Shown piece by piece: positions 28,056 to 32,565 of a stretch of DNA of 64,000 nucleotides. Made by a program: the position numbers and the translations under genes. Source of the stretch: Bacteroidales bacterium. GTDB lineage: Bacteria > Bacteroidota > Bacteroidia > Bacteroidales > UBA4181. The stretch lies in the NCBI GenBank assembly GCA_017523725.1, contig JAFWVY010000023.1, positions 62,001 to 126,000 on the forward strand, given 5' to 3'. The notes beneath the pieces are model-generated. The model saw only the letters and a list, made by a program, of their open reading frames with translations. It ran no database searches and was not told where the DNA came from. Each line of letters starts with the position of its first letter. Within the stretch, counting starts at the first letter, position 1.

Positions 28056-29333
28056 TTACAGGCGTTGGAGGTCTTCGCCGATGTCCCGGCGGTTGTATTT
28101 GCCTTCGAAGGTGATGAGCGCAGCATTCCGGTTGGATTTTTCGAGCGCTTCGGCAATGGAGCCTCCCATGGCGGAGACCGAGATGACACGTCCGCCCGCC
28201 GTGACCACCTGTCCGTCCTGCCATTGCGTGCCGGCGTGGAACGCAATGGCGTCGGTCACCCGGTCGAGGCCTGTGATGGGCTTCCCTTTTTCGTAGCTGC
28301 CCGGATACCCGCCGGATACCAGCATGACGGTCGTGGCCGTCTGCGGGCTGATGGCGATTTGCTGCCGGTCGAGCGTCCGGTCTGCGGTGGCAGTGAACAG
28401 TTCGACGATATCCGATGAAATGCGCGGCATCACGGCTTCCGTTTCGGGATCGCCCATGCGGACATTGTACTCGATGACCATCGGGTCACCCTTGACATTG
28501 ATCAGTCCGAAGAAGATGAATCCCTGATAGTCGATGCCTTCCTGCCGCAGCCCGTCAACGGTGGGGCGGATGATGCGCTCCTCCACTTTCTGCATGAACG
28601 TGCGGTCTGCGAAGGGGACCGGCGATACGGCACCCATGCCGCCCGTGTTGGGTCCGGTGTCGCCTTCGCCGATGCGCTTGTAATCCTTGGCTTCGGGCAG
28701 CAGCACATAGTGCGTGCCGTCGGTCAGGATGAACACTGACAGCTCGATGCCCTCCAGGTATTCCTCGATGACCACGGTGGCGCTGGCTTCGCCGAATTTG
28801 CCGGCGAACATGGCATGCAGCTCTTGTACGGCTTCATCGCGCGAGGACAGGATCAGCACACCTTTGCCTGCGGCCAGGCCGTCGGCCTTGAGTACGTAGG
28901 GCGGTTGCAGTGTCTCCAGGAAGCCGACGGCCTCGGCTTCTTCGGAAGCCTTGAAACTTCTGTAGCGGGCCGTGGGGATGTGGTGACGCACCATGAAGGC
29001 CTTGGAGAACTCCTTGCTTCCTTCGAGCCGGGCACCGGCCTGGAAGGGGCCGATGAACCGGATGTCGCGCAAAGCGGGATTGGCGGCGAAATAGTCCCGG
29101 ATGCCCCGCACCAACGGTTCTTCCGGTCCGACGACTACCATGTCGATGCCGGTCTGCAGGCAGAACTCGGCGATGCCGCCGAAATCGTTCGGTTTCAGGG
29201 CTACGTTGGTGCCAACGGAGGCTGTGCCGGCATTGCCGGGGGCGATGTACAGTTTCGACAGCAGGGGACTCCGGGCTATTTTCCAGGCCAGTGCGTGGCA
29301 GCGTCCGCCGGAGCCTATCAGTAAGATATTCAT
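28056..29333 (-). CDS. purD: Phosphoribosylamine-glycine ligase
   Basis: 425-residue ATP-grasp enzyme converting 5-phosphoribosylamine and glycine to GAR in purine synthesis. It begins [18 protein letters not shown], followed by [12 protein letters not shown], the ATP-grasp core ([45 protein letters not shown]) and [14 protein letters not shown]. Start taken at 29333, aligning with family N-termini; the frame is open to 29480 but adds an unrelated Lys/Arg-rich extension. First gene of purD-membrane protein-pseudophosphatase. Confidence 0.96.
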
Positions 29334-29515: not shown

Positions 29516-31000
29516 ATGTTTACACAACAAGATAGAAATCAATTCGATAAGAGAGGAATATCCGAGGCGGAGGTGCTGCGTCAGCTGCATTTTTTCGAGA
29601 CGGGATTCCCCGCATTGAATCTCGACCGGCCCGCTACGGTAGGCGACGGCATCGCCGTGCTCAGTGACGGAGAGATCTCCGCACTGGAGGCGGCTTACGA
29701 CCGTACGTCCGCGGAAAAGAAAATCGTCAAGTTCGTACCGGCTTCCGGCGCCGCGACGCGCATGTTCAAGGATATGTTCGCTTTTCTGAACACATCGGAG
29801 TACAGCAAGGCGGTGTCAGACCTCTGCGCCCGCCGCCGCGACCTGCCGTTCTACGACCTGCTGGCGCCGTATGCGGACGGACGGGAGGAGACCGGCGGAG
29901 ACCGGGCCTTCATCGCGGCCATGCTGGGCACGCCGGGTCTGGACTACGGCGCGCTGCCCAAGGCGCTGGTCCATTTCCACCGCTATGAGGACGGTGTCAG
30001 GACCTCGCTTGAGGAGCATCTGGTCGAGGGCGCCATGTACGCTTGTTCGGCAGGCCGGAAAGTGTACCTGCATTTCACGGTGTCACCCCAGCATCTGGAG
30101 GGATTCCGCCGCCGGGTTGCGGAGACGGCCGGAAAATACGGGCAGCGTTTCGGTGTGACGTATGACATTTCTTATTCGGTGCAGAGCCCTGCGACGGATA
30201 CGATCGCCGTCAATCCGGACAACACGCCGTTCCGGATGCAGGACGGGAGCATTTTGTTCCGGCCCGGCGGACACGGCGCCTTGCTGACCAATCTTGATGC
30301 CATCGATGCCGATCTGGTGTTTATCAAGAACATCGACAATGTGGTGCCCGACCGCAGCAAACCGGATACCGTTCGTTACAAGAAAGCGCTGGCGGCCTTG
30401 CTCTTCGATGTGCAGCGCCGGATTTTCGCTTATGAGGATCAACTGCAGCAGCCGGCTTCCGGTGCGCTGCTTGATGAAGTGTCGCGCTTCTTTGCGGAGA
30501 AATTGTTCATGGCCATGCCAGCCGGGTTCGACAGCCTGCCGGACGCGCAGCGCCAGGCTTTTCTGCTGCGTCTGCTTCACCGGCCGGTCCGCGTATGCGG
30601 TATGGTGAAGAACGAAGGCGAACCCGGTGGAGGGCCTTTCTGGGTGCGCCAACCGGACGGCACCTGTTCGCTGCAGATTGCCGAGTCATCGCAAATCGAC
30701 ATGCAGAATCCCGCCCAGGCTGCCATCGCCCGCAGCGCCACGCATTTCAACCCGGTGGACCTGGTCTGCGGCGTCCGGGATTTCCGTGGACGCAAGTTCG
30801 ACCTGATGGCATTCCGGGACGAAAATACGGGATTCATCTCCCATAAGTCGAAGGACGGACGGGACCTGAAGGCGCAGGAACTGCCTGGCCTGTGGAACGG
30901 GGCTATGGCCGACTGGAACACGCTGTTCGTCGAAGTGCCCGTCGCCACGTTCAATCCGGTCAAGACGGTCAACGACCTGTTGCGGCCGCAGCATCAGTAA
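29516..31000 (+). CDS. DUF4301 protein, nucleotidyltransferase-like
   Basis: 494 residues. The N-terminal third has [14 protein letters not shown], which resembles the nucleotide-binding loop of sugar-1-phosphate nucleotidyltransferases (GxGTRM). The middle contains [13 protein letters not shown] followed by FIKNIDNV, similar to GHGDLY and NxDN motifs of UTP-glucose/UDP-GlcNAc pyrophosphorylases. The DUF has no confirmed function; an NTP-sugar transferase-like role is inferred from these motifs. It starts at 29516 ([10 protein letters not shown]), the first Met consistent with the family. The next gene, a rhamnulokinase-like sugar kinase, begins 38 bases after its stop, so they are probably co-transcribed. 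Confidence 0.8.
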
Positions 31001-31038
31001 ATCAACCCAAAGAAATATTCATTGCAAACCACAGAACT

Positions 31039-32508
31039 ATGAGTAAACATACCTTTATCGCTTTCGACTTGGGCGCAACAAGTTACCGTACCATCGCCGG
31101 CACGTTGGAAGACGGACAAATCTCCATGGAGGAAATCAGCCGTTTCCCGAACGGCATCGTAGGTGTCCTGGACCACTATCACTGGGATATCGTGAGCATA
31201 TTCAATAATCTGAAGGAGAGCCTGGCTATTTGCGCCAGAAAGAATATCAAGCCTGAATCCATCGGCATTGACACCTGGGGCGTCGATTTCGGTTTCCTGG
31301 GCGAGGACGGTGCGCTGCTCGGCCTGCCCTACGCCTACCGCGATCCGCATACGGTGGGCATGATGGAAGAGTATTTCAAATTGCTGCCCAGCAAGCGGGT
31401 GTATGAGCTGACCGGCATCCAGTTCATGAATTTCAACAGCCTTTTCCAGGTCTTCACGCTGAACCGCAACAAATGCTCTGCGCTGAAACATGCCAAGGAC
31501 CTGCTGTTCCTGCCGGATCTGCTGAACTATCTTTTCACCGGTGTGAAGAAAGCCGAATTCACCATCTCTACCACGTCGCAGATGTTGAATCCCGCCACTA
31601 TGCAGTTTGACAAGGAGCTGTTCGATGCCATGGGCGTGCCTATTTCGCTCATGCAGCCGGTGGTGCTGCCCGGCACGAAGCTGGGGCTCCTGACCGATTC
31701 CATTGCAAGGGATACCGGTCTGGGCAAGTTGCCGGTCGTGGCGGTTGCGTCGCACGATACGGGATCGGCCATCGCCGCCGTACCGGCCGAAGGTGACAAC
31801 TGGGCTTACCTCAGTTCGGGTACATGGTCGTTGATGGGTATCGAGACGCGACAGGCGCTGATCAACGACACGACGTTCAACATGAATTTCACGAACGAGG
31901 GCGGCGTAGAAGGTACATTCCGTTTTCTGAAGAACATTACCGGCATGTGGCTGCTCGAGCAGTGCCGCAAGGATTGGGGAGACATCTCTTACAAGGAAAT
32001 CGATGCGGCCTGCAACGCCTCCATGCCGTACGAGTCGTTCGTCGATCCCGATGCGGCGGTGTTCGCCAATCCGGACAGCATGGAAGACGCCATCAAGAAT
32101 TACTGCCGCGAAACGGGTCAGCCTATTCCCGAAGGCATCGGCCCCATCGCGCGCTGCATTTTCGAGAGCCTGGCCATGAAGTATCGCTATGTGCTGGACC
32201 AGTTACGCAACGTTTCTCCGCATCCGATTGAAAAACTGCATGTCATCGGCGGCGGCGCCAGAAACTTGCAGCTTTGCCAATATACGGCCAACGTCATCGC
32301 AATCCCGGTCATCGCCGGTCCTACCGAATGTACGGCCATGGGCAACCTTTTGGTGCAGGCCATGGGTCTCGGTTATCTGAAATCGCTGGCCGAGATTCGT
32401 GAAGTTGTTCGCAACTCTGTGAAAACCACGAAGTTCATTCCCAAGGATACGGAGATCTGGAATGCTGCCTACCAGAAATTCCTCCGTGTGACCGGTCTGA
32501 AAAAATAA
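31039..32508 (+). CDS. Rhamnulokinase-like FGGY-family carbohydrate kinase
   Basis: 489 residues, the same size as E. coli RhaB. FGGY motifs: FIAFDLGATSYRT (phosphate loop), SIGIDTWGVDFGFL (substrate/catalytic Asp region), VASHDTGSAIAAVP, YLSSGTWSLMG and IGGGARNLQLCQYTAN. These patterns fit rhamnulokinase best, though L-fuculose or another ketose is possible. No rhamnose isomerase, aldolase or transporter is nearby; instead DUF4301 lies just upstream. A strong terminator follows at 32531-32565. Confidence 0.86.
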   Translation: MSKHTFIAFDLGATSYRTIAGTLEDGQISMEEISRFPNGIVGVLDHYHWDIVSIFNNLKESLAICARKNIKPESIGIDTWGVDFGFLGEDGALLGLPYAYRDPHTVGMMEEYFKLLPSKRVYELTGIQFMNFNSLFQVFTLNRNKCSALKHAKDLLFLPDLLNYLFTGVKKAEFTISTTSQMLNPATMQFDKELFDAMGVPISLMQPVVLPGTKLGLLTDSIARDTGLGKLPVVAVASHDTGSAIAAVPAEGDNWAYLSSGTWSLMGIETRQALINDTTFNMNFTNEGGVEGTFRFLKNITGMWLLEQCRKDWGDISYKEIDAACNASMPYESFVDPDAAVFANPDSMEDAIKNYCRETGQPIPEGIGPIARCIFESLAMKYRYVLDQLRNVSPHPIEKLHVIGGGARNLQLCQYTANVIAIPVIAGPTECTAMGNLLVQAMGLGYLKSLAEIREVVRNSVKTTKFIPKDTEIWNAAYQKFLRVTGLKK

Positions 32509-32530
32509 CCGGTGACTGCCGATTTTTCCG

Positions 32531-32565
32531 GAGGGAATGGTCGGATGGCCATTCCCTCTTTTTTT
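32531..32565 (+). terminator. Rho-independent terminator after the rhamnulokinase gene
   Basis: Perfect 10-bp stem GAGGGAATGG/CCATTCCCTC around an 8-base loop (32541-32548), followed by seven T (32559-32565). It ends 29 bases before the preferred start of the DUF5686 gene. Confidence 0.85.

Follow-up and report, generated by a model that had tools for sequence, protein, structure and literature searches.

The DUF4301 protein of a Bacteroidales bacterium resembles UDP-sugar pyrophosphorylases and is probably not the partner of the rhamnulokinase-like kinase encoded beside it

Locus organization

In this study, we analysed a 64,000-nucleotide stretch of the genome of a Bacteroidales bacterium (hereafter the window; assembly GCA_017523725.1, contig JAFWVY010000023.1, positions 62,001 to 126,000 of the forward strand), in which a gene for a DUF4301 protein is closely followed by a gene for an FGGY kinase. 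An initial annotation, made from the sequence alone, had proposed that the two genes form a sugar-activation module. The analysis supports a nucleotidyltransferase-like DUF4301; however, the gene pair is not conserved, and the kinase is probably an ordinary rhamnulokinase (RhaB) for L-rhamnose breakdown. The reading frames and Pfam domains (FGGY_N and FGGY_C in the kinase) agree with the gene assignments originally made:

29516-31000, + strand: DUF4301 gene (ATG at 29516, stop at 31000; 494 amino acids)
31001-31038, + strand: intergenic gap between DUF4301 and the kinase gene (38 bases)
31039-32508, + strand: FGGY kinase gene, a rhamnulokinase (RhaB) homologue (ATG at 31039, stop at 32508; 489 amino acids)

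Predicted fold and active site of DUF4301

The window protein matches Pfam family PF14134 along the entire model (688.7 bits, model positions 1-507 of 507). An AlphaFold2 model, built from an alignment of 33 sequences of approximately 50% identity, had a predicted local distance difference test score (pLDDT) of 89.9 and a predicted template modelling score (pTM) of 0.89. When this model was searched with Foldseek, the top 41 matches were all UDP-glucose pyrophosphorylases (UGPase), UAP1/AGX proteins or UDP-sugar pyrophosphorylases (USP), with E values from 1.8e-10 to 8.5e-7 and PDB entry 3r3i as the best match. VIA-align superposed it on Candida UAP1 (2yqj) with a Z score of 22.1 over 340 residues (3.2 A, 13% identity). 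At the sequence level, a Pfam scan of 70 DUF4301 members gave weak matches to the UDPGP family (PF01704) in 31 (best E value, 1.2e-5), and the runner-up family other than DUF4301 matched just 2 of the 70; one member displayed in full exceeded the UDPGP cut-off narrowly (22.6 versus 22 bits). Genome searches with PF01704 recovered the DUF4301 genes of three genomes (G027, G068 and G445), below the cut-off and through a common C-terminal stretch of the model. Alignment of 16 DUF4301 proteins with two true bacterial UGPases, one of them identified by its PDB match to 3gue (2.7e-121), gave an hhalign E value of 3.2e-4. In a separate observation, nine Bacteroidota loci (L309-L314 and L318-L320) carry open frames of approximately 1110-1156 amino acids with weak partial UDPGP matches.

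These data support the assignment of DUF4301 as a nucleotidyltransferase-like protein of the UGPase/UAP1 kind with a GT-A/Rossmann-like pyrophosphorylase fold and a predicted Rossmann-like nucleoside triphosphate (NTP) site; here the suggestion of the initial annotation held, as did its proposed structural comparison with UGPase and UAP1. The candidate active-site elements are as follows:

29735-29764, + strand: candidate nucleotide-binding loop, residues 74-83 (PASGAATRM, 75-83); P75-A80, R82 and M83 invariant
29960-29962, + strand: K149, the lysine of a PK motif, aligned with UGPase K90 (invariant; MAFFT in two modes)
30269-30277, + strand: GHG, residues 252-254, aligned with UGPase PGHG (conservation and MAFFT)
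30329-30340, + strand: NIDN, residues 272-275, including D274, the expected metal-site aspartate (conservation and MAFFT)
30683-30751, + strand: E390..Q393 and F411-N412, aligned with UGPase E257..Q260 and F278-N279, the putative sugar-site region (conservation and MAFFT)
30950-30982, + strand: C-terminal lysine motif, residues 479-489, including K483, the expected catalytic lysine (hhalign and MAFFT)

The motifs on which the nucleotidyltransferase suggestion had been built (PASGAATRM, GHG and NIDN) are present and are conserved far beyond chance: they are mostly invariant both in the 33 sequences used for modelling and in the 70 more diverse sequences, with N272 and I273 conserved at 90% or more in the latter. 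In the model, the first beta strand (residues 70-74) is followed by a loop, and the two GlmU rows of the VIA-align output begin at model residues 61 and 65, so that PASGAATRM falls at the position of the nucleotide loop. In both of its modes, MAFFT paired K149 with UGPase K90, P250 with P174, G252-H253-G254 with GHG 176-178, N272 with N205, D274 with D207, N275 with N208, E390 with E257, Q393 with Q260, F411-N412 with F278-N279, P481 with P351, and K483 with K353. Every one of these paired residues is invariant across the 70 diverse DUF4301 sequences, save N272 (at least 90%). Residues 479-489 pair with UGPase FAPVKTTDDLL in both hhalign and MAFFT, so that the catalytic-lysine motif (FxPxK), PGHG and NxDN of UGPase all have counterparts in DUF4301.

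The roles of these motifs, apart from the lysines considered below, are those generally known for UGPase; for D274 (metal) and for the E390..Q393 and F411-N412 region (sugar site), we take them from knowledge of the family. Q223 is likely to be the counterpart of the base-contacting glutamine. In Aspergillus fumigatus UAP1, K437 is indispensable for catalysis, and the UTP phosphates are bound by K148; the conserved lysine of Leishmania major USP is K434 (PMC8386105 and PMC12584669). Judged by its motif, K483 would be the counterpart of those UAP1 and USP lysines.

It can also be envisioned that DUF4301 has kept this fold and lost nucleotidyltransferase activity, serving instead as a sensor, chaperone or regulatory protein. 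The divergent nucleotide loop would fit such a role, and so would the lack of a recurrent neighbour family outside Flavobacteriaceae; however, little or no variation was seen at the expected catalytic positions among 70 diverse sequences, which is unexpected for a dead enzyme, and we regard a loss of activity as quite improbable.

The FGGY kinase and the rhamnose genes of the genome

The initial annotation had called the kinase rhamnulokinase-like, and this was borne out. It scored 487.4 bits against the NCBIfam rhamnulokinase model TIGR02627 (cut-off, 527.95), far above its scores for all non-rhamnulokinase families, and matched Escherichia coli RhaB (PDB 2cgj) along nearly its whole length (7.3e-98). 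Homologues at 1e-60 or below were present in 25 of 60 relatives, and the regions around 20 of these 25 listed homologues were used to count adjacency to the rhamnose isomerase gene, rhaA. Outside the family of the window's genome, rhaA adjoins the kinase homologue in 9 of 12 loci; inside that family, it lies within the stretch examined in none of 8 kinase loci.

No rhamnose isomerase or aldolase gene was found in the window by tblastn with the same genome's own genes as queries, so the earlier remark that neither is nearby holds for the window; however, both kinds of gene exist elsewhere in the genome. A rhaA gene (615 bits to PRK01076, above the cut-off) and a major facilitator superfamily (MFS) transporter gene are located on contig C47, and contig C46 encodes a 656-amino-acid protein, a homologue of the bifunctional aldolase/short-chain dehydrogenases. 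The genome has two class II aldolase genes, one of them AraD-like. The notion of an orphan kinase without isomerase or aldolase was ruled out by these findings. Rhamnose breakdown with a bifunctional aldolase/dehydrogenase, RhaEW, has been described, also for Bacteroidetes; according to PMC3870299, this enzyme is always encoded inside rha loci, unlike the arrangement in this genome.

Based on the RhaB-like scores, the relatives beside rhaA, and the presence of rhaA and an aldolase-dehydrogenase elsewhere in the genome, the kinase is most simply read as RhaB; it is probably an ordinary enzyme of L-rhamnose breakdown and not the partner of DUF4301. A separate observation concerns its N-terminal motif, which reads GATSYR in both kinases that lie behind DUF4301 (window, 31039-32508; L114, 9184-10656) and GATSGR in 7 of the 8 family relatives compared, the eighth (L157) having been read in a wrong frame; this change might alter the kinase.

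Conservation of the gene pair

The proposed module would have the kinase phosphorylate a sugar and DUF4301 convert the product to an NDP-sugar. The shared strand, the 38-base gap and the recurrence of the pair in one other genome (G003) speak for it. In that genome, the kinase is 69% identical and 78 bases separate the reading frames. However, when DUF4301 flanks of up to 8 kb were searched at 80 other loci, all in named genomes, no kinase homologue was found at any of them, so that DUF4301 occurs mostly away from FGGY kinases of the window's kind, which the initial annotation had itself named as an outcome that would tell against its proposal. Within the window's family, seven genomes carry both genes, and these are adjacent only in the window's genome and G003; in four (G002, G005, G006 and G010), other genes lie behind DUF4301 and the pair is clearly broken, and in G004, the contig ends at that point. 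Together with the kinase relatives beside rhaA, these counts rule out a conserved module.

There is also a chemical objection. FGGY rhamnulokinases phosphorylate the primary hydroxyl at C1 of a ketose, not the anomeric hydroxyl. The FGGY product is thus not an anomeric phosphate, and a sugar-1-phosphate pyrophosphorylase would not normally accept it. We consider the module very improbable. The window kinase would instead have lost its position beside rhaA and would now sit in a clade-specific gene order behind DUF4301. The gene pair in the window is a misleading guide to the substrate of DUF4301.

The surroundings of the pair contain the following features:

28056-29330: purD, upstream of DUF4301 and divergent from it
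32530-32559, + strand: terminator-like hairpin (13 pairs) followed by a T run, 3' of the kinase gene (pattern scan only)

Given the hairpin and T run, it is plausible that DUF4301 and the kinase are carried on one two-gene transcript. The hairpin scan gave 3 matches against a shuffle mean of 3.6, although the stem at 32530-32559 is long nonetheless, and the promoter and terminator scan yielded nothing in excess of shuffled sequence. An Rfam scan of the window found two tRNAs and nothing else.

Distribution and neighbours of DUF4301

Of the 60 relatives, 52 carry DUF4301, almost always in single copy; among the 49 that are more complete, the count is 46. In a phylum sample, it was found in 71 of 392 genomes, the window's genome being counted in both sets; in the control set, it was detected in Bacteroides ihuae alone. 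The names Bacteroidales, Rikenellaceae and Flavobacteriaceae (family f55) used here are those that we assigned from record titles and sequences. Outside Flavobacteriaceae, 107 of 111 loci gave a usable DUF4301 reading and yielded 76 close same-strand neighbours; a Pfam scan of 64 of these, which left out near-duplicates and L114, found no family in more than 2 of the 64. In Bacteroidales, DUF4301 is a nearly universal single-copy gene without fixed neighbours. UDPGP itself was found above the cut-off in none of the 60 relatives and in 8 of the 392 phylum genomes and is therefore too rare to be tested as a gene complementary to DUF4301.

Of 80 loci, 32 have a gene beside DUF4301, in divergent orientation, that by eye we take to be RelA/SpoT-like; a presumably MurB-like gene adjoins DUF4301 in 3 Alistipes/Rikenellaceae loci. 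Both are probably cases of plain synteny.

A NadR-type kinase partner in Flavobacteriaceae

DUF4301 does have a kinase partner, but one of a different type and in a different lineage. Many DUF4301 reading frames of family f55, which we take to be Flavobacteriaceae, are over-long in the phylum sample, and their extra N-terminal domain is AAA_28, which matches the ribosylnicotinamide kinase (RNK) half of NadR. This half aligns with positions 164-322 of TIGR01526, the portion behind the nicotinamide mononucleotide (NMN) adenylyltransferase (NMNAT) half, and the NMNAT half is absent from the fusions. In unfused cases, a PnuC gene (PF04973) lies ahead of the RNK gene, which overlaps DUF4301 or ends next to it. 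Of 119 genomes, 114 were RNK-positive, and 30 RNK loci from these were examined: DUF4301 is adjacent or fused in 28 (exceptions, L258 and L262) and PnuC is adjacent in 28 (exceptions, L258 and L279). Among the Flavobacteriaceae of the phylum sample, 38 genomes have DUF4301, 40 have RNK and 34 have both, leaving 4 with DUF4301 only and 6 with RNK only; in all 34 with both, the two matches lie 16-35 bases apart by match coordinates.

This arrangement raises the possibility that DUF4301 is an NMN adenylyltransferase of the UDPGP fold, making NAD from NMN and ATP or, in a variant, a related dinucleotide with UTP. In Flavobacteriaceae, NMN would come from the NadR-type kinase acting on nicotinamide riboside imported by PnuC; in other lineages, it would come from, e.g., NAD-dependent DNA ligase and would be recycled without the kinase in gut Bacteroidales. 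Fused kinase-nucleotidyltransferase proteins usually catalyse consecutive steps, and such an activity would explain the fusion directly, because in NadR, too, this kinase is linked to a transferase; in effect, the fusion would be a second invention of NadR, a two-step enzyme with its transferase half swapped for an unrelated fold. The near-constant adjacency of RNK, PnuC and DUF4301 and the missing NMNAT half favour this possibility, as does the lack of a thiamine pyrophosphate (TPP) riboswitch, for which Rfam gave no match in 9 loci; on the latter ground, a thiamine reading of the PnuC operon, to which an NMT1/THI5-like gene at one locus (L213) had pointed, was dropped.

However, outside Flavobacteriaceae, 33 genomes have DUF4301, 60 have RNK and only 8 share them, with no excess over chance (Fisher p approximately 0.33; family totals were guessed at 44, 46 and 50, and the outcome was unchanged), which rules out RNK as a general partner. 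AAA_28 was matched at 1e-8 in 18 of 44 DUF4301 genomes, and no AAA_28 kinase match was found in the window's genome. NadD was present in all 56 DUF4301 or flavobacterial genomes examined, so NAD synthesis would have no need of DUF4301, and genomes lacking NadD and dependent on DUF4301 for NAD were not found among the 56. The proposal also requires a new fold for the reaction, does not itself explain the retention of DUF4301 in Bacteroidales, and sits poorly with the retained UGPase sugar-site residues; we judge it unlikely. Based on the chance-level overlap and the ubiquity of NadD, the partnership seen in flavobacteria is either an additional function or a sign that other lineages obtain the substrate of DUF4301 by another route.

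Several further observations were made at these loci. Among ten neighbours of RNK genes unlinked to DUF4301 (8) or of second AAA_28 genes (2), no NMN adenylyltransferase was found. A conserved flavobacterial block, not complete at every locus, surrounds PnuC, RNK and DUF4301 in L210-L215, L221, L222 and L225, and includes an RF-1-domain protein and a TonB receptor (like PnuC and RNK, assigned by Pfam) together with genes that by eye we take to be adenosylhomocysteinase-like, phosphopantetheinyl transferase-like and GGGP synthase-like. An NMT1/THI5-like gene (L213, 3494-4402) lies near the TonB receptor of one such locus. Second AAA_28 genes occur in flavobacteria (L286-L293); that of L286 adjoins a RecQ-like helicase gene and a methionyl-tRNA formyltransferase-like gene, and similar-sized genes follow it in other loci.

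Discussion

Based on the predicted fold, the residue conservation and the gene contexts described here, we infer, with moderate confidence in the account as a whole, that DUF4301 would be an active, divergent pyrophosphorylase and that the window kinase would be an ordinary rhamnulokinase acting in L-rhamnose breakdown. DUF4301 would be a Mg-dependent nucleotidyltransferase of the GT-A/UDPGP kind, acting on an NTP, with UTP as the most likely one, and on a phosphorylated acceptor, for which a sugar phosphate is the most likely candidate. An oxygen of the acceptor's phosphate group would attack the NTP at its alpha-phosphate to yield an NDP-linked compound and pyrophosphate. The protein would represent a compact divergent branch with its own insertions and without the C-terminal beta-helix of UGPase. 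Sugar-phosphate uridylyltransferase activity is preferred because the UGPase sugar-site residues are kept and because the gene is common in genomes that lack RNK.

A number of observations weigh against this account. The window protein does not reach the UDPGP cut-off, having no UDPGP match in the Pfam scan, and PDB sequence searches with single DUF4301 proteins or with two profiles did not detect UGPase. TM-scores of approximately 0.5 indicate that the fold superposes in part only. The nucleotide loop, PASGAATRM, differs from GGxGTxMG; MAFFT leaves the nucleotide loops unaligned and places Q223 one column off the UGPase glutamine, so the preference for UTP stays tentative. The link to nicotinamide riboside kinase in Flavobacteriaceae is left unexplained by a sugar substrate. 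As for the rhamnose pathway, the kinase falls below the TIGR02627 cut-off, and the aldolase-dehydrogenase on contig C46 scores 277 bits against the RhaD_aldol-ADH cut-off of 568.

Most Bacteroidales, the main gut bacteria, retain DUF4301 as a single-copy gene without an assigned function. In the open part of the literature, the word DUF4301 was found once, in a rumen metaproteome, and PF14134 was not found; a search in the kinase context gave no paper that by its title concerns the family, and one in the UGPase context gave none at all. The placement among the pyrophosphorylases, the named catalytic residues and the flavobacterial kinase fusion make the question of its function answerable with two purified proteins. 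If DUF4301 did act on NMN, it would define a novel class of NMN adenylyltransferases with the fold of the UDP-sugar pyrophosphorylases.

Comparison with known systems

The Bacteroides fucose enzyme Fkp reportedly uses a GHMP-type kinase, which acts on the anomeric hydroxyl, unlike the FGGY kinase of the window. The latter is like E. coli RhaB (2cgj) in its near full-length match and in having relatives beside rhaA outside the window's family; it differs in lying outside a rha locus, in its score below the TIGR02627 cut-off and in reading GATSYR for GATSGR, a change common to G003.

Likewise, the flavobacterial DUF4301 proteins are reminiscent of NadR, being encoded next to, or fused with, a NadR-type kinase domain behind PnuC. 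Unlike NadR, the fusions have no NMNAT half, their transferase-like domain is of another fold and is C-terminal, and the window's genome has no detected kinase of this type.

Among the pyrophosphorylases, the eukaryotic UDP-GlcNAc pyrophosphorylase UAP1/AGX (2yqj) is the best VIA match of DUF4301, despite the low identity (13%) of the structural alignment, and DUF4301 would be expected to share the UAP1 mechanism in which a lysine takes the place of a second metal, as described in PMC8386105. Compared with UGPase (PF01704), which runs approximately 95 residues past the catalytic lysine, DUF4301 ends 11 residues past K483, without the C-terminal left-handed beta-helix, has a different nucleotide loop, and carries insertions behind this loop and behind NIDN; nevertheless, it resembles UGPase in its predicted GT-A-type fold and in its counterparts of K90, PGHG, NxDN, E..Q, FN and FxPVKTxxDLL.

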